64,000 bases of DNA from an uncultured Spirochaetia bacterium (GTDB taxonomy: Bacteria > Spirochaetota > Spirochaetia > CAKZLE01): contig CAKZLE010000020.1 of assembly GCA_937125225.1 (NCBI GenBank), positions 124,001 to 188,000 on the forward strand, read 5' to 3'. The notes beneath the pieces are model-generated. The model was not told the DNA's origin. It saw only the letters and a program-made list of their open reading frames with translations, and searched no databases. This document shows positions 12,679 to 28,804 of this stretch, piece after piece. Every line of letters starts with the position of its first letter. The first letter of the stretch is position 1. Position numbers and translations under genes: made by a program.

Positions 12679-13491
12679 CTAGAAGTCTATTGCGCCAAGA
12701 GCAAATGAGAGATCCTGTACTGTTACGAGTACTCCTCTATTCTGTTCTAAGTCTGGTGCGATCGTCTGTACTCTTCTGAGTACACTGTTTACGGCATCTC
12801 TATCTACTACTGCGATGACCTGTCTACTGAACAGGTTCCTCCGGTCATTCCAGAGAGCTGCGAATATCGGCATGCGGTAGAGGTAGTTGTTTGCATTCTC
12901 TGTCTCAATGACGGTGACTGAACCATCTGCCTCAGAACTGACGGCCTCAAGGATATCATTGAAGTAGTTCTCGTTCTGGATGTATAGGGTGATCTGTGAC
13001 TTTCCCTGTCCACTGACTGAGGGTTCTGAATAGCTGATAGATGTTCTAAAGATCGCTCTGATCGTATCTGCTGATTGAGCATCGATGAGAGCCTCTCGAA
13101 CCTGTTTCTGTTTTACCGATTTCGAGATAGAGGAGAGTAGTCTCACATGAGTGTTCCGGTCATCGGTAGGACCGATGAGGAAGATGAATATCTGAGAAGG
13201 CTTCTCATCAAGTGCATCGAAATCGAGTGGTTTCTCTGTGATGATCGCACCAACGACGAAAGCATCGAGTGAATCGAAACTACAGTGCGGGATGGCTACA
13301 CCATCTGCGAGACCTGTTGAGCTGAGTTTTTCCCGCCTTTGCAATGCTTTGAATATCTCATCTTCACCGATTGCTTTCAGTGAAGGGGATTGGGCTGCAA
13401 GAGATGCGATCTTTCGTAATAGATCGGTCTTTGAATCGATCTGCTGTTTAGCGGCTATGCACTCATTGTGCAGATTGTGCCATAGATTCAT
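12679..13491 (-). CDS. EIIA-Ntr/fructose-type PTS protein with extra C-terminal domain
   Basis: Residues ~1-155 are a fructose/Ntr-type EIIA domain with the phospho-accepting His in 'DGVAIPHCSFD' and the following 'KPLDFDALDEKPSQIFIFLIGP'. Residues ~165-270 are a separate ~105-residue alpha/beta domain ('ITLYIQNENYFNDILEAVSSE' ... 'GVLVTVQDLSFALGAIDF'). Its repeated strand-helix pattern could be PII/ferredoxin-like, which is inference only. It overlaps the upstream HTH-EIIA gene by 29 bp and precedes the antiporter by 10 bp. It is likely a phosphorylation-state sensor rather than a sugar transporter, since no EIIB or EIIC is nearby. Confidence 0.85.
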   Translation of the reverse strand: MNLWHNLHNECIAAKQQIDSKTDLLRKIASLAAQSPSLKAIGEDEIFKALQRREKLSSTGLADGVAIPHCSFDSLDAFVVGAIITEKPLDFDALDEKPSQIFIFLIGPTDDRNTHVRLLSSISKSVKQKQVREALIDAQSADTIRAIFRTSISYSEPSVSGQGKSQITLYIQNENYFNDILEAVSSEADGSVTVIETENANNYLYRMPIFAALWNDRRNLFSRQVIAVVDRDAVNSVLRRVQTIAPDLEQNRGVLVTVQDLSFALGAIDF

Positions 13492-14167
13492 AATCTTCCT
13501 CCAAGAGTATTTTAGTTATGTCTTGCGGGGTATGAGCCCGTAAAAGTTTTTTACGTGTTGTCTCTTTTCTGGTGAACTTGGCTAGTCTCGCCAGTAATCT
13601 CAGGTGTGTAGTCTCTTCATGAGCCAATAACAGAAAGAACAGATGAGTCTTTGACCCATCGAGGCATCCATAATCGACTCCGCTCTGGCTGATACCCATG
13701 ATGAGAGGGGGAAGGTTTCTGCTATTCTCTCGGACGTTCCTGATATGAGGGAAGGCGGTCCCGAATCCGATAGCAGTAGTCACCATCTGCTCTCTAGCCT
13801 GCAGTCCTGATACGAGTGAGGCGGTCTGTTCCATATACCCCTGGCTTTTCAAAGGTGCCGTCAACTCCAACAGTATGTCTTCCATGCTTTGAGCTTTCAG
13901 ATTCATAAGAATGAGGTTCTCAGGGATCAGACGTGATAATTGAATGATCTGGCTGTCCACATCCATGATGGATGCTATGTTGTGCTCTTCTGTGAAGGTC
14001 ATCTTATTATTGAGCCAGGCATCGATAACAGTCTTTCTGAATCTCCACTGTCCGGCGATCTTCATACAGGGGATCTCTCCACGCTGGATCATCCTCGATA
14101 CAGTCTTTGATGCTATTTTTAGGTAGTCAGCTACCTCTTGTAAGGTTAAAATGTCGTTAATGTCCAT
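13463..14167 (-). CDS. HTH (excisionase-type) DNA-binding domain fused to PTS EIIA domain
   Basis: Residues 5-55 are an excisionase/MerR-like helix-turn-helix ('LTLQEVADYLKIASKTVSRMIQRGEIPCMKIAGQWRFRKTVIDAWL'). Residues ~85-232 are an EIIA domain of the fructose/Ntr type with the phosphorylatable His in 'GTAFPHIRNV' and 'FFLLLAHEETTHLRLLARLAKF'. This combination suggests a DNA-binding protein whose activity follows PTS phosphorylation. It is first in the antiporter operon, with GAGGA five bases before the ATG, so autoregulation is plausible. Confidence 0.88.
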   Translation of the reverse strand: MDINDILTLQEVADYLKIASKTVSRMIQRGEIPCMKIAGQWRFRKTVIDAWLNNKMTFTEEHNIASIMDVDSQIIQLSRLIPENLILMNLKAQSMEDILLELTAPLKSQGYMEQTASLVSGLQAREQMVTTAIGFGTAFPHIRNVRENSRNLPPLIMGISQSGVDYGCLDGSKTHLFFLLLAHEETTHLRLLARLAKFTRKETTRKKLLRAHTPQDITKILLEEDYESMAQSAQ

Positions 14168-16234: not shown

Positions 16235-16254
16235 CATACAGAGTAAAAGTCTCA

Positions 16255-16295
16255 TTGTCACATATGACACGATATGGTATTATCGTGTCATATGT
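16255..16295 (+). promoter_or_regulatory. Promoter embedded in a 15-bp-arm perfect inverted repeat covering the start codon
   Basis: The arms ACATATGACACGATA (16260-16274) and its exact complement (16281-16295) are separated by six bases. A promoter fits inside: TTGTCA (16255-16260), 17-bp spacer, TATTAT (16278-16283). The right arm contains ATG 16292, nine bases after the -10 end. A protein bound here would block both RNA polymerase and any start on the message. The next gene begins with a SorC-type DNA-binding domain, which makes autoregulation the simplest reading. Confidence 0.8.
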
Positions 16296-18247
16296 TATTT
16301 ATTGAAGAAGAAGATGACCGAGAACTCCTCAAGGAGATTTCTCGACTCTATTATAGTGAAGGCCGTTCTCAGGCCGAGATAGCAAGAAGATTCTCCATCT
16401 CAAGATCACTCATTTCGAAACTCCTCAAGCGTTCTCGAGAGGAGGGCATCGTCAGGATATCGATAGATACCCCAAAGAACTCTGCCCTCTCCTATGAGAC
16501 TAGGCTGTTAGATCGATTCACTCTTGAACATTGTTGTGTCGTTGCCTCTCAGGCTGCAGGTGATGAGATCAGCAGCATCGTCGGTGCTCGTGCTGCAGCT
16601 TACCTGAAGACTCAGATCAAAGAGGAGAGCCATATCGGACTTGATTGGGGGACCTCTCTCTATCAGATGATTAAGCAGTTCTCCTCGAATGACCTTCATG
16701 AGGGGGTTGAGATCGTTCAGCTACACGGTGTGATCGAATCGGCCTCTCTCGATATCGAGGGATTCTCACTGGCCAAGGCGCTCGGTCAAAAACTGGATGC
16801 GAGAATTCGGCTATTACAGGCTCCCATGATCGTTGGTGATGTAAAACTCAAAGAACGGCTAGTCTCGGAGCAGAAGATATCAGAGGTCTTGGAGGCTGCC
16901 TCCTCTCTTGATATCGCCTGTATCGGTATCGGGACGAACCTCTCTGGCAGTAATGTCCTCACAAGGGCAGGATACCTCTCTGATGAGGAATCTCTAAAGG
17001 TGATGAGATCAGGTGGTACTGCTATGATCAGTGGCTGGTTCATCGATTCTGAAGGAGAACTGATCCCCTCATCGGTGAATGACCGGATCATTGGTCTGAA
17101 TCCTGAGAGCTATAAAGATATCCCCTTGGTCATTGCAGTGGCCCATGGCCGAGAGAAGGGTGCTGCGATCCATGCAGCTCTTATCGGGGGATATATCGAT
17201 GCACTTATCACCGATTCAGATGCTGCAAGAGAGATCCTTCGAGTCGATGCACAGAGAAAAGCTCAATTGAGACATCCCTCACTAGAGAGGGGAACTGTCC
17301 TGAACATCTATTCACAGATGATCATGACACGTCTTACAGAACAGCGGATCGATGAACTGTTTCAGGAGGGAGCCCTCTATGGGACGACTCATCTGTGTGT
17401 AGGCCAGGAGGCCTCCTCTACGATATCTGCCTATGCGTTAGAGAAAGGGGACCTGATCTTCGGTACTCATCGTGGGCACGGTCAGGCTCTTGGGAAGGGG
17501 CTTTCTGTCGAATCATTGTTTGCAGAGATGTTCGGAAAGGAAACTGGCTGTTCAAAGGGGCTCGGGGGAAGTATGCATCTCTATGATGCTGACCATGGGA
17601 TCATGGGTATGAATGGTATTGTCGCCGGAGCTGTACCTATAGCAGTGGGGGCGGCACTCTCTTTGAAGAGAAGGGGCTCTGATCTCATATCTGCAGTCTA
17701 TTTCGGAGATGGGGCGATCCACGAGGGAGCCTTTCATGAAGCTGCGAACATCGCAGCACTCTGGGATCTCCCGGTTTTGTTTCTCTGTGAGAACAATCAA
17801 TATGGCTTCTCTAAGAGACCTGTCGAGGTGATGGGCCATGACGATATCGCATCGAAGATTCGTTCCTATGGGATAGAGACAGAGGTGATCGATGGGAATG
17901 ATGCCCTAGCAGTCTATACGAAAGTCAAGAGTATGAGAGAACGCGTCTCTCAGGGGGGGGCGAAATGTCTCGTTCTTGAGACCTATCGAGTCTCCGGACA
18001 CTCTAAGAGTGATAAGAATCGCTATCGATGCGATGAGGAGATATCGGTGTGGCAGTCCCGCTGTCCTATCGCGACACTTGGGCGGTTGTTGATCGAAGAG
18101 TATCGCGTAACAGAGGACGAGTTAGAAGGTCTTGAGATAGCATGCAGGAGGGGCATCGAGATCTCTGAAGAGAGAGCCCGATCAGCTGCTGATGCAGACT
18201 ATGAGCTTAGTGACTCACTTGTCTATAAAGGAGTCAGCCATGAGTGA
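16292..18247 (+). CDS. Fusion: SorC-family transcription regulator + thiamine-diphosphate dehydrogenase E1 alpha
   Basis: One uninterrupted 651-residue frame. Residues ~8-55 are a SorC/DeoR-type HTH ('LLKEISRLYYSEGRSQAEIARRFSISRSLISKLLKRS'). Residues ~60-320 are a SorC sugar-binding domain ending 'ALIGGYIDALITDSDAAREIL'. After a short linker, residues ~335-650 are a complete E1-alpha subunit of the pyruvate/acetoin dehydrogenase type: 'THLCVGQEASSTISAYAL', 'FGTHRGHGQALGKG', and the ThDP motif 'GDGAIHEGAFHEAANIAALWDLPVLFLCENN'. The start is ATG 16292 rather than 16274, because the promoter's -10 box overlaps 16274. It overlaps the E1-beta gene by 8 bp. No lipoyl E2 or E3 gene is nearby. A metabolite-sensing repressor fused to its own enzyme is the evident hypothesis. 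Confidence 0.9.
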   Translation: MLFIEEEDDRELLKEISRLYYSEGRSQAEIARRFSISRSLISKLLKRSREEGIVRISIDTPKNSALSYETRLLDRFTLEHCCVVASQAAGDEISSIVGARAAAYLKTQIKEESHIGLDWGTSLYQMIKQFSSNDLHEGVEIVQLHGVIESASLDIEGFSLAKALGQKLDARIRLLQAPMIVGDVKLKERLVSEQKISEVLEAASSLDIACIGIGTNLSGSNVLTRAGYLSDEESLKVMRSGGTAMISGWFIDSEGELIPSSVNDRIIGLNPESYKDIPLVIAVAHGREKGAAIHAALIGGYIDALITDSDAAREILRVDAQRKAQLRHPSLERGTVLNIYSQMIMTRLTEQRIDELFQEGALYGTTHLCVGQEASSTISAYALEKGDLIFGTHRGHGQALGKGLSVESLFAEMFGKETGCSKGLGGSMHLYDADHGIMGMNGIVAGAVPIAVGAALSLKRRGSDLISAVYFGDGAIHEGAFHEAANIAALWDLPVLFLCENNQYGFSKRPVEVMGHDDIASKIRSYGIETEVIDGNDALAVYTKVKSMRERVSQGGAKCLVLETYRVSGHSKSDKNRYRCDEEISVWQSRCPIATLGRLLIEEYRVTEDELEGLEIACRRGIEISEERARSAADADYELSDSLVYKGVSHE

Positions 18248-19220
18248 TATGAGAGAGATTACCTATGCCCAGGCTATCAGAGAGGCAATAGCCTCTGAGA
18301 TGAGAAGAGATGAGTCAGTGATCCTTCTAGGAGAGGATATCGGAGTCTATGGGGGGAGTTTTCATGTTCTTGAGGGACTCTTCGATGAGTTCGGTTGTGA
18401 GAGGATGTTAGAGACTCCGATCGCTGAAGAGGGCTTCACCGGTGTTGCTATCGGTGCTGCATTGACCGGTTCTCGACCTATAGTCGAATTCATGTTCAGT
18501 GACTTTCTTGCAGTGGCAATGGATCAGATCGTCAATCAAGCGGCGAAGTATCGGTTCATGTTCGGAGGAGTAGGTTCTGTACCTCTCGTGATTCGTACAC
18601 CGGGAGGTTCCGGTACGGGTGCTGCTGCTCAGCACTCCCAGTCTCTTGAGGCTTGGTTCACTCATATCCCGGGATTGAAGGTGGTGGCTCCTTCGAATGG
18701 GTATGATGCCAAAGGGCTGCTTATCTCTGCCATTCGTGATCCCAATCCGGTACTGTTCTTCGAGCAGAAGACACTCTATCCGAGTAAATCGGTCGTCCCT
18801 GAGGAGTCCTATGCGATACCTTTAGGAGAGGCCCATATACTCAGTGAAGGGGATGAACTTACGATCGTCTCCTATGGTCGGATGGTAGGGATGGTCCTTG
18901 AGTGCCTCAGTTTCTTTCCTAGAAAGATCGAACTCATAGATCTAAGGACCCTCTCTCCCCTTGATATGGCTACCGTTCATGCGAGTGTCCGTAAGACCGG
19001 AGGTCTGTTGATCGTACATGAGGCTGTCAAGAATGGTGGTATTGGGGCGGAGGTCTCGGCACGGGTTGCCGAGGATCAGGAGACTTTCAATTCACTGAAG
19101 AGCCCAATAAGGCGAGTCTGTGGTAAAGATGTTCCCATCCCCTTCGCGAAAAAGCTCGAGGCTGCTGCGGTACCGAATGAAGAAGATATCAGAAAAGCCA
19201 TTGCGGAGTTCTTGCAATAG
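18240..19220 (+). CDS. 2-oxoacid/acetoin dehydrogenase E1 beta subunit
   Basis: A 326-residue E1-beta of the pyruvate/acetoin/branched-chain dehydrogenase family: 'EDIGVYGGSFHVLEGL', 'RMLETPIAEEGFTGVAIGAAL', 'SGTGAAAQHSQSLEAWFTHIPGLKVVAPS', and a transketolase C-terminal domain from ~190. It partners the upstream E1-alpha half to form the ThDP-dependent decarboxylase. The start is ATG 18240, with AAAGGAG nine bases upstream, overlapping the fusion gene stop. The track's 18192 start lies inside the upstream gene. Confidence 0.93.
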   Translation: MSDMREITYAQAIREAIASEMRRDESVILLGEDIGVYGGSFHVLEGLFDEFGCERMLETPIAEEGFTGVAIGAALTGSRPIVEFMFSDFLAVAMDQIVNQAAKYRFMFGGVGSVPLVIRTPGGSGTGAAAQHSQSLEAWFTHIPGLKVVAPSNGYDAKGLLISAIRDPNPVLFFEQKTLYPSKSVVPEESYAIPLGEAHILSEGDELTIVSYGRMVGMVLECLSFFPRKIELIDLRTLSPLDMATVHASVRKTGGLLIVHEAVKNGGIGAEVSARVAEDQETFNSLKSPIRRVCGKDVPIPFAKKLEAAAVPNEEDIRKAIAEFLQ

Positions 19221-19248: not shown

Positions 19249-21432
19249 ATGAGAACCAAATACCTGACTCGTGAAGAGAAACTTCTTGGACAGAAACACT
19301 ATAACAGGTTTCAAAAGCTCAATGGCGCCGGATACAACTTCCTAGGAGATACGATCGTATATCTTCTGGCGATCTATTTTGGTGCGAGTAATATCCAATT
19401 GGGGTATATCTCCTCTGCAGGATTCCTGATGGGGATCTTCCTTCCTGTGATTCCCAGACTCGTAAGAGGAAAGAATCTAGTGACCCTTCAGGCCATCTCT
19501 TGGCTGTTCAGAGGTCTGGCTGGGCTCGGTTATGGGCTCCTGTTCTTCTTCTCAGGGGAGCAGGCTGTCTGGTTGATCCTCTTCCTCTACTCCTGTTTCA
19601 GTTTATTCAGATTAGTCGGAGTCGTTGTCATCAATCCTCTAATAAACCATATATCCTCCTCTGGTAACCGAGGGCAGATCATCGCTCAGGTGAATATCTC
19701 CTTTCAATCAGTCTCGATCTTGGCAAAGATCGTCAGTGCGATCATCATCTCGATCCAGCAGCTTTCTGGTTATATCGGACTGATCTTCATCGAGATCCTA
19801 GGCTTTTTAGTAAACTCTCTTTCTGTCGTCCAACTGCGAAAGGTCCCCTGTCGTGCTACTGTCGAGACAGTGAAGGGGAGGAATCTCTTCGTACTGTTCA
19901 AAGAGGCTATGAAGAAGAGGAACGAGAGGATCGTTCTTTTTCTCGTCTGGCTCAATGTCATGATGTTCGTCCTTCTCGGGCTGATCATTCCCTTCCTACG
20001 GAAGGAGTTCGGCTTTGAGAACTATCTTGTCATCCTCTATTCTGCCCTTTCGGGTATATCATTCGTTCTTGCAAGTATGTATACAAAAGCGGTCGGTGAT
20101 CGTATAGGAAGTAGACCCTTCCTGCTCGTAGGTGGGATGATCCTTCTTGTCTGTCTGCTTGGGTGGATACTCATCCCAGTCTCCATCTCTCCTGTTGTCG
20201 TCTTCATCCTCGGTTTCTTTACCAGCTTCTTTCTCTTTTCCAACAATCTCTTCATCAGTAGACTGTTACTGTTACAGATCCCAGAAGATGAGGGCTTTGT
20301 CTATAATACGATGAGTAACTTCTGTATCGCTATCATATCGCTTATCAGTGGAATCGCCGGTGGTCTTCTTATTGATATTGGGACGACCCATTATGCTCAG
20401 TGGATCACCATTCCCATTGGGAATAATCATCTACTGCTATTCGGATTCACTATTCTCATCACTTTCGTCATGTTGTTATTAGCCCTGCAGATCAAAGAAA
20501 CAGAGGGAGATACCTCCGCCTCTGCGAGTATGCTCTTCTCCTTCCAGGGATTGAAAGCATATGTCGACATCTCACGACTAGAAAAGATCAAGAACCCTAT
20601 CAAGAAGAAGACGGTCCTCTTCGCTATCAGTGACAATGCGAATGGGATGGCCACCGATGAGATCAAGAAACTCATGGCCTCTCCACTCTCTTCAGATAAG
20701 ACACCGGTACTGCAGTCACTGTTTCATCACCGTAGGCCTTCGTTACTGAGACCTCTCATAGATATCGCACTTGATCCTGACTCCTACCATCAACTCGAGG
20801 CTGTCTTCGCTTTAGGCGCCTATAGGAATGAAGCGAGTAAAGATGCTCTGCTCGAGATCTTCAATACCTATGAGGATCCCCGGTTCAGATCGAGCGCTGC
20901 AAAGGCACTCGGAAGGATCGGGAATAGGGAGATAGTCGATGAGGTGAAAGAACTCCTCTCTCTTGATAATCCTATTTGGGTACAAATGAACTACATCATC
21001 GCTTTGAAGAATATGGATGTCCGATCCCTCTTCAAAGAGGGGCTATTCAGAGCACTCGAGAAGGGGAGGTCTAGGACCTATCGGCAGACCATATATTCTC
21101 TGTATGCCAAGATCATGAACTTCAGCCCTTCCTTGTCAGAAATCTATCAGGGAAGGAATACCCGTCAAGGGAAGGGGCTTCGAGAGTTCTTAGAGGATGC
21201 TCGTGATACGAATGAGGTCTTCGAGTCCTATGATAAGCTTAATCGGTGGTTCATTGATGAGGAATGGTCTGAACTAGTCAGGTGGTGTATAACCTCTGTA
21301 GAGGATAAGAGGCTCAAAGGGGTAGAGGAGTCCATCCGACAAGCTGTCTTGAGTACTGATAGTCTCAAAGACTCTTTCGACTATGATGACGCACTTGCCT
21401 GTTTCTACTTCTCCTACCAGATCATGAGATGA
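19249..21432 (+). CDS. MFS transporter with C-terminal HEAT-like repeat domain
   Basis: A 727-residue protein. Residues ~20-430 contain about 12 membrane segments of a major facilitator ('NGAGYNFLGDTIVYLLAIYFGASNIQLGYISSAGFLMG', 'TKAVGDRIGSRPFLLVGGMIL'). Residues ~440-727 are soluble, with HEAT-like helical repeats ('YHQLEAVFALGAYRNEASKDALLEIFNTYEDPRFRSSAAKALGRIGNREIVDEVKELL'). The start is ATG 19249, after GGGAGG. The track's upstream extension overlaps the E1-beta gene. It is third in the SorC-E1 locus, so it may move a related substrate or simply be co-located. Confidence 0.82.
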   Translation: MRTKYLTREEKLLGQKHYNRFQKLNGAGYNFLGDTIVYLLAIYFGASNIQLGYISSAGFLMGIFLPVIPRLVRGKNLVTLQAISWLFRGLAGLGYGLLFFFSGEQAVWLILFLYSCFSLFRLVGVVVINPLINHISSSGNRGQIIAQVNISFQSVSILAKIVSAIIISIQQLSGYIGLIFIEILGFLVNSLSVVQLRKVPCRATVETVKGRNLFVLFKEAMKKRNERIVLFLVWLNVMMFVLLGLIIPFLRKEFGFENYLVILYSALSGISFVLASMYTKAVGDRIGSRPFLLVGGMILLVCLLGWILIPVSISPVVVFILGFFTSFFLFSNNLFISRLLLLQIPEDEGFVYNTMSNFCIAIISLISGIAGGLLIDIGTTHYAQWITIPIGNNHLLLFGFTILITFVMLLLALQIKETEGDTSASASMLFSFQGLKAYVDISRLEKIKNPIKKKTVLFAISDNANGMATDEIKKLMASPLSSDKTPVLQSLFHHRRPSLLRPLIDIALDPDSYHQLEAVFALGAYRNEASKDALLEIFNTYEDPRFRSSAAKALGRIGNREIVDEVKELLSLDNPIWVQMNYIIALKNMDVRSLFKEGLFRALEKGRSRTYRQTIYSLYAKIMNFSPSLSEIYQGRNTRQGKGLREFLEDARDTNEVFESYDKLNRWFIDEEWSELVRWCITSVEDKRLKGVEESIRQAVLSTDSLKDSFDYDDALACFYFSYQIMR

Positions 21433-22959: not shown

Positions 22960-23601
22960 CTAGAGCATATGGTTGTCTGAGATATTCAATTCGTAGAAGA
23001 TCTGCTCCAACTCTAGCGCGATATTCACATTATGGATGATAATGTGTTTGTCTTCCTCATCCTTGGAGGCCTTCAACCCGATTGGGGTGAAGTTGAGGAA
23101 ACCTCTGACACCGGCTTCACATAGTCGTCTGAACAAATCTGAAGCCTCCTGCTCTGGTACGGTCAGGATCGCGACTTGAATATTCTTCTTCTTCACGATC
23201 TCCTCGAGTTGTTCGAGTGGGTATATGGGTATCGGACACTCCTGCTCATCACAGACATGGGTGTTGATATCGAGACCTGCTACGATCTTTATTCCATCGC
23301 TTGCGAAACCACGGTAGCGCATAAGAGCTCCACCGATCCTTCCACAACCGACGATGATAGCCTCCTGTGGTTTATCCTTTCCTAAAATCTTATCAAGGCT
23401 TGCGATGAGATTATCGATCTCATAGCCACCTCGTTTCTGTCCTATGATCTTCAACAGTGAGAAATCTTTTCTCACAACAGTGGCATTCACCCCTGCCGCA
23501 TCGCCAAGATTATTGGCAAAGACACGTTCTAATCCTAATGATTTGAGCTTATGGAGTATTCGATAATACTTTGTGATTCTTATAATCATGTCACCGTGCA
23601 T
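22960..23601 (-). CDS. rex: Redox-sensing transcriptional repressor Rex
   Basis: A 213-residue Rex protein. Residues ~1-75 are a winged helix ('YYRILHKLKSLGLERVFANNLGDAAGVNATVVRKDFSLL'). Residues ~80-205 are a Rossmann NAD(H)-binding domain with 'AIIVGCGRIGGALMRYRG' and the 'GFLNFTPIGL' segment. High NADH/NAD+ lowers DNA affinity and derepresses fermentative and hydrogen-evolving genes. It is divergent from the hydrogenase operon, which is a natural target. Confidence 0.95.
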   Translation of the reverse strand: MHGDMIIRITKYYRILHKLKSLGLERVFANNLGDAAGVNATVVRKDFSLLKIIGQKRGGYEIDNLIASLDKILGKDKPQEAIIVGCGRIGGALMRYRGFASDGIKIVAGLDINTHVCDEQECPIPIYPLEQLEEIVKKKNIQVAILTVPEQEASDLFRRLCEAGVRGFLNFTPIGLKASKDEEDKHIIIHNVNIALELEQIFYELNISDNHML

Positions 23602-23619
23602 AACAACCGCCTTTATTAA

Positions 23620-23633
23620 GTGAAACTGTTCAC
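23620..23633. promoter_or_regulatory. Inverted repeat resembling a Rex operator upstream of rex
   Basis: GTGAA-ACTG-TTCAC (plus strand) lies 18 bp upstream of the rex ATG in the rex/hydrogenase divergent region. It resembles the TTGTGAA...TTCACAA style of Rex boxes. Confidence 0.55.
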
Positions 23634-23699
23634 ATTAACTATAATAAAAAAAATTAATAAAATCAACATGTTTTTTTATATCATACTCGAAGTTCTTTA

Positions 23700-23728
23700 T
23701 TGAATAAATTTGTTAATTAATTTATTAT
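23700..23728 (+). promoter_or_regulatory. Hydrogenase operon promoter with candidate Rex box in the spacer
   Basis: TTGAAT (23700-23705), 17-bp spacer, TATTAT (23723-23728). The sequence TTGTTAATTAATTTATTA (23710-23727) lies across the spacer and -10. Its left half matches the Rex consensus TTGTTAA...TTAACAA exactly and its right half partly. Binding would block RNA polymerase. Confidence 0.65.
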
Positions 23729-23766
23729 TCCCGAAACAATGACCTTAATTGGGATTCGGAGGTTCC

Positions 23767-24243
23767 ATGTCTGTAAAGAACGATACTATTAAGTTTTCCG
23801 ATGAGCTCACGAAGTTCATCATGGAGTGGAAAGAGAAACCCGGCAATCTGATCATGATCCTGCACAAGGTTCAAGAGGAATTTGGCTATATTCCTCGTGA
23901 TGCTGCCGACAAGGTTTCTGAGATGATCAAGGTACCCCTAGCGAAAATCTATGGAGTAATCACATTCTACCATTTCTTCAAGCTCACAAAACCAGGAGAT
24001 TTCAATATCCAGGTTTGTATGGGAACAGCTTGCTACCTTAAAGGTGGAGACGGGCTTATCGAAGAGATTGAAAGTCTTTTGGGAATCAAGACGAATGAAG
24101 TCACTAAAGATGGGAAATTCTCCATCGAGGCTGTTCGTTGTGTTGGATGCTGTGGTTTAGCCCCAGTGTTAGTTGTTGGTGAAGAGGTCTTCGGAAAAGT
24201 TACCAAAGATCAGCTTCCTGGAATTATTTCTAAGTTCAACTAA
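23767..24243 (+). CDS. hndA: NuoE-like [2Fe-2S] subunit of NAD-linked [FeFe] hydrogenase
   Basis: A 158-residue thioredoxin-like ferredoxin of the NuoE/HndA/HydC type. The four cluster cysteines appear in 'VCMGTACYLKGG' and 'RCVGCCGLAPV'. The start is ATG 23767 with GGAGG four bases upstream; the track's TTG start is unsupported. First gene of the operon hndA-ATPase-hndB-hndC-hndD. In this complex it passes electrons between the flavin subunit and the hydrogenase subunit. Confidence 0.93.
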   Translation: MSVKNDTIKFSDELTKFIMEWKEKPGNLIMILHKVQEEFGYIPRDAADKVSEMIKVPLAKIYGVITFYHFFKLTKPGDFNIQVCMGTACYLKGGDGLIEEIESLLGIKTNEVTKDGKFSIEAVRCVGCCGLAPVLVVGEEVFGKVTKDQLPGIISKFN

Positions 24244-24248
24244 GCGGT

Positions 24249-24818
24249 ATGCATGAATCAATCTGTGACTTCCTGTTGGATATTATCCAGAATGCTATAG
24301 AGGCACGATCAAGTGTCATCACTATTATAGTAGAGGATACCAGCGACTCGTTCACCTGCAAGGTGATCGATAATGGGAAGGGCATGAGTGAATCAGAGTT
24401 GGAACGTATACGAGATCCTTTCTATACCGATGGTGTGAAACATACCAAACGGAAGGTTGGATTAGGGATACCATTCTTAGAGCAGGCTGTGAGTATGTCA
24501 GATGGTGATTCTTCTATAGAATCTGTGAAGGGTGAAGGAACAACGATCACGTTCTCCTTTCCTTTTGATCATATTGATACTCCACCGATCGGGAATATCC
24601 CCTCAACGTTCTTTGCTGCTATGACATATCCTGGAGATTTTGAGATGCATATTCACTATGCAATATCTCGGGATTCAGGAGCTGATGGATATGAACTGCA
24701 TAGGAATGAGTTGATTGATATCCTTGGAGATCTCTCCATGAGTCAATCCTTGATCCTATTACGGGATTTCATCAGATCACAGGATGAAGATTTAGAAGAG
24801 TTACGGAAGAACCGATAA
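24249..24818 (+). CDS. GHKL (histidine-kinase-type) ATPase domain protein in the hydrogenase operon
   Basis: A 189-residue protein. The N-terminal ~105 residues form a HATPase_c fold: N box 'LLDIIQNAIEA', G1 box 'VIDNGKGMSESEL', and G2 'KVGLGIPFLEQAVSM'. There is no dimerisation/His-phosphotransfer domain, no sensor and no membrane segment, so it is not an ordinary histidine kinase. The remaining ~80 residues are not recognised. It sits five bases after hndA and before hndB. The position is inside a multimeric hydrogenase operon, but its role (assembly, regulation or kinase) is unknown. Confidence 0.85.
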   Translation: MHESICDFLLDIIQNAIEARSSVITIIVEDTSDSFTCKVIDNGKGMSESELERIRDPFYTDGVKHTKRKVGLGIPFLEQAVSMSDGDSSIESVKGEGTTITFSFPFDHIDTPPIGNIPSTFFAAMTYPGDFEMHIHYAISRDSGADGYELHRNELIDILGDLSMSQSLILLRDFIRSQDEDLEELRKNR

Positions 24819-24838
24819 ACAAGAAGGAGGCCACTTAC

Positions 24839-25240
24839 ATGGCAAAGATGACTTTGGAGGCGCTAAGGGCGCTTCGTGAAGAGAAGAAGAGCGCATTGAA
24901 CAAGCGTGATGTAGAAGGTAAGACTGCACAAATCGTCGTTGGTATGGGGACTTGTGGAATCGCTGCTGGAGCTAAAGGTGCTCTAGATGGATTCCTTGCA
25001 GCTATTGATGAATATAAGTTAGATAATGTTGCTGTCACACAGACAGGCTGTATGGGACTGTGTTATGTAGAACCAACAGTTGAAGTTATCGTAGAAGGCA
25101 TGCCTAATGTCATCTATGGAAAGGTTGATGCAGAAGTGGCAAAGAAGATCGTAAAAGATCATGTCATGCATAAGCAGATGGTCTCTGAGCATGTATTCGA
25201 TCGACCAGCAGCTGACATTTTCAATGGTGGAGGCAAATAA
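24839..25240 (+). CDS. hndB: HndB-like [2Fe-2S] thioredoxin-fold ferredoxin
   Basis: A 133-residue small ferredoxin-like subunit. Cysteines in 'GMGTCGIAAGAKGALDG' and 'TQTGCMGLCYVEPTVEV' match the NuoE/NuoF N-terminal type of [2Fe-2S] fold. The family member is HndB of the NADP-reducing hydrogenase of Desulfovibrio and similar clostridial operons. A GGAGG site precedes the ATG, and its stop overlaps the next ATG by one base (TAATG). Confidence 0.88.
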   Translation: MAKMTLEALRALREEKKSALNKRDVEGKTAQIVVGMGTCGIAAGAKGALDGFLAAIDEYKLDNVAVTQTGCMGLCYVEPTVEVIVEGMPNVIYGKVDAEVAKKIVKDHVMHKQMVSEHVFDRPAADIFNGGGK

Positions 25241-27027
25241 TGGCATTAAGAAACTATATACTTGTCTGCGGTGGTACTGGTTGTGAATCAGCCGGAGCAG
25301 ATAGCATTTATAAAAACCTGATCTCTGAGTGTGAACTTCAGGGAGTCGCTGATGAAGTACAGATCATCAAGACTGGTTGTTTTGGATTCTGTGAACAGGG
25401 ACCGATCGTAAAGATCCTTCCTGAAGACTCTTTCTATGTTCAGGTCAAACCTGAAGATGCAAAAGAGCTTGTCAGTGAACATATCGTCAAGGGACGAGAG
25501 GTTGCTCGACTCCTCTATAACAAGAACGAATCCAAGAAACATGCTAAGGTCGAAGATATCGAATTCTACCAGAAACAGTTCAGAATCGTCCTGAGAAACT
25601 GTGGTTTCATCAATCCTGAGAACATTGACGAGTATGTTGCTCGTGAAGGTTATGCAGCGTTGGAGAAGGTCCTGTTCGAGATGACACCAGACGATGTCAT
25701 CAATGAACTCAAGGTAGCCGGACTCCGAGGCCGTGGTGGGGCAGGTTTCCCATCCTGGATGAAGTGGAATTTCACAAAACAGGTTGAAGATGATGTAAAA
25801 TATGTCGTATGTAATGCTGATGAGGGAGACCCCGGTGCATACATGGACAGATCTACACTCGAAGGTGACCCTCACTCTATCTTAGAGGCAATGACTATCG
25901 CAGGTTATACTTGTGGAGCTTCAAAGGGTTACATCTATATTCGAGCTGAATATCCCCTGGCGATCAAGAGACTCGAGATCGCGATGGGACAGGCTAGAGA
26001 ATATGGTCTACTCGGTGAAGATATCCTAGGCAGTGGCTTTGGATTCGACATTGAGATAAGACTTGGTGCCGGCGCATTCGTTTGTGGTGAGGAGACAGCT
26101 CTTCTTGCATCGATCGAAGGTGAACGAGGAATGCCAAGACCAAGACCACCTTTCCCTGCAGTCAAGGGACTTTGGGGAAGACCTACTGTCATCAACAATG
26201 TTGAGACTTGGGCTAACATCCCTGTGATCCTCCTTAAAGGTGGAGAGTGGTTCTCTAAGATCGGTACTGACGACTCAAAGGGTACAAAAGTATTCGCTCT
26301 CACTGGTAAGATCAGAAACTCTGGTCTCGTCGAGGTTCCAATGGGAACCACATTACGAGAGATCATCTTCGATATCGGTGGTGGTATCGCTAATGGTAGA
26401 GAGTTCAAAGCAGTACAGACTGGTGGACCTTCTGGTGGTGTAATCACCAAAGAACACCTTGATACTCCAATCGACTACGGTTCATTGACAGGCCTTGGTT
26501 CCATGATGGGATCAGGTGGAATGATCGTAATGGATGAGGATGACTGTATCGTTGACGTTACAAAATTCTATCTTGGTTTCTCTGTAGATGAATCATGTGG
26601 AAAGTGTTCTCCCTGTAGGATCGGTGGACGATCCCTTTATAACCTTTTAGACAAGATCACTAAGGGTGATGGGGAGATGGAAGATATCGATAAGATGAAA
26701 GAGATCGGGGCTGCAATGAAGAAAGCTTCATTATGTGGACTTGGACAGACTGCACCGAACCCGATTCTGTCAACTCTTCACTATTTCGAGAAAGAGTACC
26801 TTGCGCATATCAAAGATAAGAGATGTCCTGCTGGAAAGTGTAAAGAACTCATCTCTTACAACATCCTTGCTGATAAATGTATTGGATGTACAGCATGTGC
26901 AAGAAAATGTCCGGTTGATGCGATCATTGGTGAGAGACGTCAACTTCATAGAATCGACCCAGATCTCTGTATCAAATGCGGGGTTTGTCTCGAAACATGT
27001 AAATTCGGAGCAGTCTTCGTTCGTTAG
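25240..27027 (+). CDS. hndC: NuoF-like flavin/NADH-binding subunit of [FeFe] hydrogenase
   Basis: 595 residues. Residues ~1-90 are a thioredoxin-like [2Fe-2S] domain ('GGTGCESAGADSIYK', 'KTGCFGFCEQGP'). Residues ~130-520 are the NuoF/51-kDa core, with NADH/FMN motifs 'GLRGRGGAGFPSWMKW', 'CNADEGDPGAYMDR' and 'GAGAFVCGEETALLASIEG', and a [4Fe-4S] site 'ESCGKCSPCRIGG...CGLGQ'. A C-terminal 2[4Fe-4S] ferredoxin reads 'CIGCTACARKCPVDAI...CIKCGVCLETC'. This is the HydB/HndC architecture of NAD(P)-dependent, in many cases electron-bifurcating, hydrogenases. Confidence 0.95.
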   Translation: MALRNYILVCGGTGCESAGADSIYKNLISECELQGVADEVQIIKTGCFGFCEQGPIVKILPEDSFYVQVKPEDAKELVSEHIVKGREVARLLYNKNESKKHAKVEDIEFYQKQFRIVLRNCGFINPENIDEYVAREGYAALEKVLFEMTPDDVINELKVAGLRGRGGAGFPSWMKWNFTKQVEDDVKYVVCNADEGDPGAYMDRSTLEGDPHSILEAMTIAGYTCGASKGYIYIRAEYPLAIKRLEIAMGQAREYGLLGEDILGSGFGFDIEIRLGAGAFVCGEETALLASIEGERGMPRPRPPFPAVKGLWGRPTVINNVETWANIPVILLKGGEWFSKIGTDDSKGTKVFALTGKIRNSGLVEVPMGTTLREIIFDIGGGIANGREFKAVQTGGPSGGVITKEHLDTPIDYGSLTGLGSMMGSGGMIVMDEDDCIVDVTKFYLGFSVDESCGKCSPCRIGGRSLYNLLDKITKGDGEMEDIDKMKEIGAAMKKASLCGLGQTAPNPILSTLHYFEKEYLAHIKDKRCPAGKCKELISYNILADKCIGCTACARKCPVDAIIGERRQLHRIDPDLCIKCGVCLETCKFGAVFVR

Positions 27028-27052
27028 AACGTAGATGCCAAGGAGGAAACAG

Positions 27053-28804
27053 TTGAGTACTGTACAAATGAAAATAAACGGTAACCCGGTAGAAGTACCA
27101 GCAGATTACACTCTGCTCGCTGCTGCTAAGATGGTTAATGTGAATATTCCAACTCTCTGTTATCACCCAGATCTACCAGCATGGGCTGCATGTGGTATCT
27201 GCGTGGTAAAACTAGAGAATTCACCCAAGATGGTTCGTGCCTGTGCTACACCAGTAGCTGAAGGTATGAGTATCATCACTCATGATCCTGAACTGCATCA
27301 GATCAGAAAGACCGTTCTTGAGTTGATCCTATCGACTCACCCGAACTCATGTCTGACCTGTGGTCGAAATGGATCTTGTGAGCTTCAGAGACTTGCCGCT
27401 GAATTCGGTATCCGAGAGCAGCCGTATGAGATTCGATTGAAAGACCTTCCCAAAGATGATTCTACTCCCTCGATCGTTCTCAATCCTGAGAAATGTATCA
27501 ACTGTGGTCGATGTGCGATCGTCTGTCAGCAGGTACAGGGTGTATGGGCATTAGAGTTCGTCGGTCGTGGAGATGGTACGGTTATCGCACCTGCTGCGAA
27601 CCTGACACTTGATGATAGTCCATGTATCAAATGTGGTCAGTGTTCAGCACACTGCCCAGTCGGAGCTATCTTCGAGAAAGACCAGACAAGGAACTTCCTG
27701 AATGCTGTGAATGATGAGAAGAAGCATGTTGTCGTGCAGATCGCTCCAGCAGTTCGAGTCGCTATCGGTGAAGGATTCGATACGGATCCAGGTTGTGTCT
27801 GTACCAAGAAGACCTATGCTGCTCTACGAAGACTCGGAGCAGATGCGGTATTCGATACGAACTTCGCAGCTGACCTCACCATCATGGAAGAGGGATCAGA
27901 GCTTGTCCAGAGACTCACTGAAGGATCGGGGCCATTGCCACAGATCACCAGTTGTTGTCCAGCTTGGACAGATTATATGGAAAAGTATTACTATGATATG
28001 ATTCCTAACTTCTCTACAGCAAAATCTCCAATGATGATGCAGGGTGCGATGACTAAGACCTACTATGCTGAGAAAGCTAATGTGGATCCCAAGGATATCT
28101 TCTCTGTGGCGATCATGCCTTGTACTGCTAAGAAGTACGAGATCACACGAGATGACAATATGTTTGCCTCAGGTCAGCAGGATGTGGACCTCGTTCTTAC
28201 CACAAGAGAGCTCATCCGATTGATCAAGGCTTCAGGTATCGATTTCAAGATGCTTCCTGATGAAGATGCAGATTCCCCTATCGGAGAGTATGCAGGTGCA
28301 GGAACTATCTTCGGTAACACTGGTGGTGTAATGGAAGCTGCTATTAGAACAGCTTATGCCCTAGTTACCGGTGAAGAGATGGAGAACTATGATATCGAAG
28401 CTGTTCGTGGAATGGACGGAGTAAGACGAGGAGTCGTAGACTTCAAGGGTACTCCAGTCAAGGTAGCGGTGGCTCACGGTATGGGTAATGTAAAAGAACT
28501 TCTTGATGAGGTTCGTGCAGCACGAGATGCAGGAGAGGAACCTCCATATCACTTCATTGAAGTAATGGCATGTCGTGGTGGTTGTATTGCAGGTGGTGGT
28601 CAACCATATGCTACGACTGATGAGATCCGAGAGAGACGAATCGCAGGTCTCTACGCAGATGATAAGGCTTCAGAGGTTCGATGTTCACATCAGAACCCAG
28701 CGATCACAAAGATCTATTCTGACTTCTTAGGTGCTCCACTGAGTGAGAAGTCTCATCACTTGCTCCATACGACATATCAACCAAGACCTCTTTACAAAAA
28801 ATAG
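27053..28804 (+). CDS. hndD: [FeFe] hydrogenase catalytic subunit
   Basis: 583 residues. An N-terminal [2Fe-2S] plant-type domain (Cys in 'CYHPDLPAWAACGICVVKL') is followed by a His/Cys cluster region 'THPNSCLTCGRNGSCELQ', two [4Fe-4S] sites ('CINCGRCAIVCQ', 'CIKCGQCSAHCPVG') and the three H-cluster motifs 'TSCCPAWTDY', 'IMPCTAKKYE' and 'EVMACRGGCIAGGGQP'. The start is taken as TTG 27053: AGGAGG lies six bases before it, whereas the track's ATG 27035 has no ribosome site and includes this AGGAGG. HydEFG maturases are not in the window. Confidence 0.95.
   Translation: MSTVQMKINGNPVEVPADYTLLAAAKMVNVNIPTLCYHPDLPAWAACGICVVKLENSPKMVRACATPVAEGMSIITHDPELHQIRKTVLELILSTHPNSCLTCGRNGSCELQRLAAEFGIREQPYEIRLKDLPKDDSTPSIVLNPEKCINCGRCAIVCQQVQGVWALEFVGRGDGTVIAPAANLTLDDSPCIKCGQCSAHCPVGAIFEKDQTRNFLNAVNDEKKHVVVQIAPAVRVAIGEGFDTDPGCVCTKKTYAALRRLGADAVFDTNFAADLTIMEEGSELVQRLTEGSGPLPQITSCCPAWTDYMEKYYYDMIPNFSTAKSPMMMQGAMTKTYYAEKANVDPKDIFSVAIMPCTAKKYEITRDDNMFASGQQDVDLVLTTRELIRLIKASGIDFKMLPDEDADSPIGEYAGAGTIFGNTGGVMEAAIRTAYALVTGEEMENYDIEAVRGMDGVRRGVVDFKGTPVKVAVAHGMGNVKELLDEVRAARDAGEEPPYHFIEVMACRGGCIAGGGQPYATTDEIRERRIAGLYADDKASEVRCSHQNPAITKIYSDFLGAPLSEKSHHLLHTTYQPRPLYKK

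Follow-up and report, generated by a model that had tools for sequence, protein, structure and literature searches.

Genes at the locus

The window analysed here comprises 64,000 nucleotides of a contig from an uncultured Spirochaetia bacterium. A single stop-free frame on its forward strand runs from an ATG at 16274 (657 amino acids) or 16292 (651 amino acids) to a stop at 18247, and genes for an E1-beta subunit and a transporter follow (Table 1). The initial annotation, made from the sequence alone, had read this frame as a SorC-type repressor (HTH plus sugar-binding domain) joined to a full E1-alpha subunit, and domain searches agree. PF04198 matches the chain with 195 bits (cut-off 27) over profile positions 6-257 of 257, and PF00676 (E1_dh) matches the same chain with 222 bits (cut-off 22). 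Several Pfam HTH models match the N-terminus at E-values of 5e-5 to 2e-4, just below their cut-offs, and the protein aligns without a break to DeoR (8r7y) and LsrR (4go1) from residue 8-10 to 317, HTH included. The second half has the features of a complete E1-alpha, with GDG...NN and GHSKSD kept and an E1-beta gene adjacent; it is alignable with human PDH E1-alpha, and the ThDP/Mg and His-loop residues are retained. The annotation's claim that the HTH and GDG...NN motifs persist therefore holds. THRGHG, GGSMH, GHSKSD, and GDG...ENN occur in every full-length fusion we found, and the linker between the halves is short, with a sequence that varies. A structure model computed from two sequences had low confidence (mean pLDDT 37.5). 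Both halves of this conserved repressor-enzyme fusion are apparently intact, judged by their profiles and motifs. Production of free E1-alpha from an internal start was considered and rejected: no internal ribosome site or start is conserved across the fusions, and a good candidate is present only in genome G017.

Table 1. Features of the fusion locus, with positions in the window
Feature	Position	Strand	Basis or remark
Putative operator, TTGTCACATATG-N-CATATGT	16253..16298	+	Place and sequence conserved in six fusion promoters
Sigma-70-like promoter, TTGTCA-17-TATTAT, TG before -10	16255..16283	+	10/12 matches; inside operator
SorC-E1alpha fusion protein, 651 aa	16292..18247	+	Alternative start ATG 16274
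HTH DNA-binding domain, residues ~10-58	16319..16465	+	HTH profile matches and alignment
SorC effector-binding domain PF04198, residues ~65-317	16484..17242	+	Pfam and alignment
Short inter-domain linker, residues ~318-330	17243..17281	+	
E1-alpha domain, residues ~331-632	17282..18187	+	Pfam PF00676 and motifs
GDG...ENN ThDP/Mg motif	17705-17797	+	Inside E1-alpha domain of fusion
GHSKSD loop with catalytic-type His	17996-18013	+	Inside E1-alpha domain of fusion
E1-beta, 326 aa	18240..19220	+	8-nt overlap with fusion stop; SD AAAGGAG
MFS transporter with C-terminal HEAT repeats	19249..21432	+	28 nt downstream of E1-beta

The E1-beta gene overlaps the end of the fusion, as had been noted earlier, and it overlaps or abuts the fusion in all fusion genomes with readable flanks. 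Its product passes the NCBI subfamily cut-off (NF006667) and retains the motifs EEGF and AAQHSQ. The MFS transporter with HEAT repeats adjoins the fusion in three of the five genomes with readable flanks, G001 and G057 being among those that keep it. Gene order is mostly retained, with losses in single genomes: clpP lies upstream, and the transporter, RidA-like, nuclease-like, Rex, and NADH-hydrogenase genes are also part of the conserved neighborhood. In the window, positions 22960-28804 hold a Rex-like redox sensor and then what are apparently the genes of an NADH-dependent [FeFe]-hydrogenase, in an order shared by the fusion genomes. The window also encodes a second DNA-binding fusion (13463-14167, reverse strand), in which an excisionase-type HTH_17 domain is joined to a PTS EIIA-2 domain; its neighbors are a second EIIA-2 protein (12679-13491) and a cation/proton-antiporter-like gene.

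Distribution of the fusion

A search for other chains with SorC and E1-alpha domains, as the initial annotation had proposed, covered 60 relatives and 395 class genomes and found the same fusion in six genomes of two families. It is full length and in a single frame in the window's genome (G000) and in G001, G057, G017, and G040; in G072 the match ends at a contig end and spans the SorC-E1-alpha junction. The two spirochaete families belong to different orders, the fusion is present in all six of their genomes that were examined, and the proteins share 47-54% identity. That the second family belongs to a different order follows from the window's order having just two genomes in the sample. The fusion was absent from the other ~389 class genomes sampled, and in a phylum-wide sample of 393 genomes it occurred in the window's genome alone. 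A contig scan recovered a 54%-identical full-length fusion in the metagenome-assembled genome Spirochaetia bacterium Tobar13m-G40, apparently the same as G001. The seventh match, in G054, consists of adjacent but separate sorC and acoA genes with a TGA between them.

Two separate genes joined by a missed stop would also appear as one frame, and such separate neighbors do exist in G054 and in Clostridioides difficile. The frame, however, runs through the junction without a stop in six genomes that were assembled independently and differ in DNA sequence, so we rule out an assembly or sequencing artefact, to which we assign almost no probability. The concern raised with the annotation, that close relatives might always have separate halves, is thereby removed. 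No SorC-E1 fusion was reported in the literature we searched, which included few subscription papers. The SorC and E1-alpha families are known and enzyme-repressors are known as a kind; it is their combination that was not found in this literature.

Putative operator and promoter

The repeat that had been noted at 16260-16295 is a real palindrome with perfect 15-bp arms (16260-16274 and 16281-16295) and lies inside the putative operator. The element TTGTCACATATGTTC...AAATGTGACA is found in register in all six fusion promoters. Aligned without gaps, these promoters have 134 identities and 13 invariant columns, whereas 200 dinucleotide shuffles never exceeded 100 and four, respectively; of the six operators, the window's departs furthest from the rest. 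The two halves of the conserved element are what would be expected of a SorC/DeoR-class operator. Promoter-like sites also arise in shuffled sequence, so the weight of the promoter assignment comes from conservation. The predicted transcription start is at or beside the ATG at 16292, and the fusion mRNA may thus be leaderless. The fusions of family f17 have purine-rich, Shine-Dalgarno-like stretches between operator and ATG, unlike the fusion in the window.

A scan of seven genomes with the operator pattern returned the fusion promoters in five genomes and three isolated sites, a rate matched by the reversed-pattern control. We therefore reject a wider regulon, since the scan yields almost only fusion promoters. 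Because the operator is conserved in register and nearly unique genome-wide, we predict that the fused repressor probably acts on its own promoter. The half-site of the fusion operator matches the published Bacillus subtilis DeoR half-site ...TTTACATATGTTCAA, and in several fusion genomes the left half is identical to the ACATATGTTC of the DeoR operator (PMC11229326). The core ACAWWTGT is present upstream of six of seven unfused SorC-type aco operons (shuffle P ~5e-9). The conserved operator points to the probable target DNA of the fusion, and the shared half-site hints at the binding sites of the SorC regulators that are common in aco operons.

Unfused relatives and origin

The fusions form one clade in trees of the SorC part (100/100), E1-alpha (100/99), and E1-beta (99/96). 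The fused SorC part is nearest, with moderate support (87/85), to the sorC gene directly before acoA in G054. In that genome sorC and acoA lie side by side as separate genes (L040, 919-2865, reverse strand), and the fusion could have arisen from such a layout. Many Spirochaetia (L035, L041-L045) encode acoA-acoB-E2-E3-sorC operons of separate genes, and G000, G001, and G017 have both the fusion and an ordinary aco operon. On C. difficile plasmids a complete sorC-E1a-E1b-E2-E3 operon (L050, 6986-12906) lies beside a sigma-54 activator gene; in the plasmid search sorC and acoA were found as separate neighbors only. Since unfused sorC genes with acoABCL are common, it is understandable that a regulator should have merged with the gene that opens its own operon. 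The single clade of the fusions in each tree is explained if neighboring genes merged once and the product was then inherited or transferred whole; by these trees the fusion has a single origin. A different fused gene occurs in G052 (L021, 1483-3456), where a 658-amino-acid frame unites E1-alpha and E1-beta in one chain.

Sensor half

Regulators of the SorC/DeoR class bind DNA as tetramers and are released by a (phospho)sugar. In DeoR the pocket lysine is Lys141, which we take to be the covalent effector site, and the residue aligned with it in the fusion is His145. With this replacement the effector of DeoR cannot be assumed for the fusion, and deoxyribose-5-phosphate is an unlikely ligand. 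The pocket stretch reads QLHG or QMHG in the whole fusion clade, QLHGG in the G054 regulator, and QLMGG in the aco regulators. The fusion may share the kind of effector with the aco regulators.

Enzyme half

The fusion scores 285.5 bits against TIGR03182, the equivalog model for PDH E1-alpha, below the cut-off of 393.85; a stand-alone aco E1-alpha is also below it, at 367.1. By motifs and trees the fused E1 groups with aco-type E1s and not with the class's E1s of PDH type. The trees contained no biochemically characterised AcoA, which leaves us to guess at the substrate: our first choice would be acetoin or diacetyl, our second pyruvate. The fused E1-alpha is evolving faster than its stand-alone counterpart (53% identity between G000 and G001, versus 78%), which could reflect a changed or relaxed function. 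In family f1, to which the window's genome belongs, the stretch after ENN is rewritten to SKRPxEVMxHD.

No fusion genome has E2 or E3 in the fusion operon. The initial annotation stated that no E2 or E3 is nearby; this is correct for the neighborhood in the window, and does not extend to the genome, where a search for these components found a complete E1a-E1b-E2-E3-SorC operon ~330 kb from the fusion, at ~466-472 kb of its contig. An aco-type E2 is encoded in G000, G001, and G017. Besides the fusion, no aco-type E1 or E2 was found in G040, G057, and G072, whose assemblies are 81-89% complete, and reliance on a shared E2 is thus doubtful there. With an aco-type E2 found in three of the six fusion genomes, the E1 either draws on a shared E2 or functions without any. 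An AcoAB-type E1 alone can perform carboligation in vitro (PMC12247030).

Possible roles of the fusion

We consider it rather likely that the fusion is an autoregulated AcoA-type E1 subunit, which represses its operon through its own SorC domain, obtains E2/E3 from elsewhere, and arose by a single merger. The SorC domain would bind the operator over its own promoter, where the two half-sites straddle the -35, the -10, and the start, and would thereby shut off the operon for the fusion and E1-beta, perhaps including the transporter. A small metabolite in the SorC pocket would release the fusion. The released E1-alpha could then form, with E1-beta, a ThDP-dependent acyl-cleaving enzyme of the acetoin dehydrogenase kind that uses E2/E3 made elsewhere in the genome. 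Such a protein would have originated when sorC merged once with the adjoining acoA, and the fusion would have been kept since. The putative binding site in the promoter of the fusion gene suggests that the enzyme probably governs its own synthesis. That the fusion binds DNA and represses is inferred, as are its effector, its activity as an enzyme, and the substrate, and any link between catalysis and DNA binding is likewise a matter of inference. A stronger form of autoregulation, in which an active alpha/beta enzyme is held as a SorC tetramer on its own promoter and its catalytic or assembly state is coupled to operator occupancy, would make the fusion a trigger enzyme; this is conceivable, and we hold it to be doubtful.

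The E1 part could instead serve mainly as a sensor or oligomerisation module, so that the regulator reads a ThDP-dependent reaction or ligand, with little flux and no need for E2. Consistent with this are the missing E2/E3 in the operon of every fusion genome, the three of six genomes in which aco-type E2 was not found, the fast evolution of the fused E1-alpha, and the rewritten stretch after ENN in family f1. Yet all ThDP/Mg and His-loop residues remain, and an E1-beta with its active-site motifs is kept, overlapping or abutting the fusion, wherever flanks are readable, and we regard a mainly sensory role as unlikely. The halves might also be independent, joined in one chain for stoichiometry or convenience without regulatory meaning. 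Regulator and enzyme are already side by side in G054 and on the C. difficile plasmid, and the short, variable linker would suit a plain joining of this sort. We nevertheless think it improbable, as the fusion has never been split again in six genomes diverged to ~50% identity and lacks a conserved internal start that would give free E1-alpha.

Comparison with known systems

The regulator half has the same HTH and effector domain, at full length, as the DeoR subclass of the SorC family (B. subtilis DeoR, E. coli LsrR, SorC), and the operator half-site ACATATGTTC is common to DeoR and the fusion (PMC11229326). Known members of the family end after the effector domain, whereas the fusion continues into E1-alpha; compared with DeoR it also has a histidine for the pocket lysine and an operator that covers its own promoter and start codon. 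With AcoA/AcoB (acetoin:DCPIP oxidoreductase) of acoABCL the fusion shares THRGHG, GHSKSDxN, and GDG...NN, but its alpha subunit has an N-terminal repressor, evolves faster, and is encoded in an operon without E2/E3. The sorC-acoA-acoB-E2-E3 operon of the C. difficile plasmid and the acoA-acoB-E2-E3-sorC operons of Spirochaetia have the same components and a related operator core. There, unlike in the fusion, regulator and enzyme are separate proteins, with sorC and acoA adjacent in G054 and C. difficile.

Trigger enzymes such as PutA and BirA combine DNA-binding and catalytic parts in one chain and control their own genes, and in them the catalytic domain itself is the sensor. A trigger enzyme is one whose catalytic state or substrate alters the DNA binding of the same protein. 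The fusion, in contrast to PutA and BirA, adds a separate, ready-made effector domain, and is a candidate for this class; to our knowledge no dehydrogenase-complex subunit carries its own repressor. If it belongs there, a single chain would bind DNA, sense a metabolite in the SorC pocket, and catalyse C-C cleavage, and a trigger enzyme would have been built from a 2-oxoacid or acetoin dehydrogenase subunit. With its possible control over its own gene, the fusion is a clean case that lends itself to testing, for which the unfused relatives in the same genomes are natural controls.
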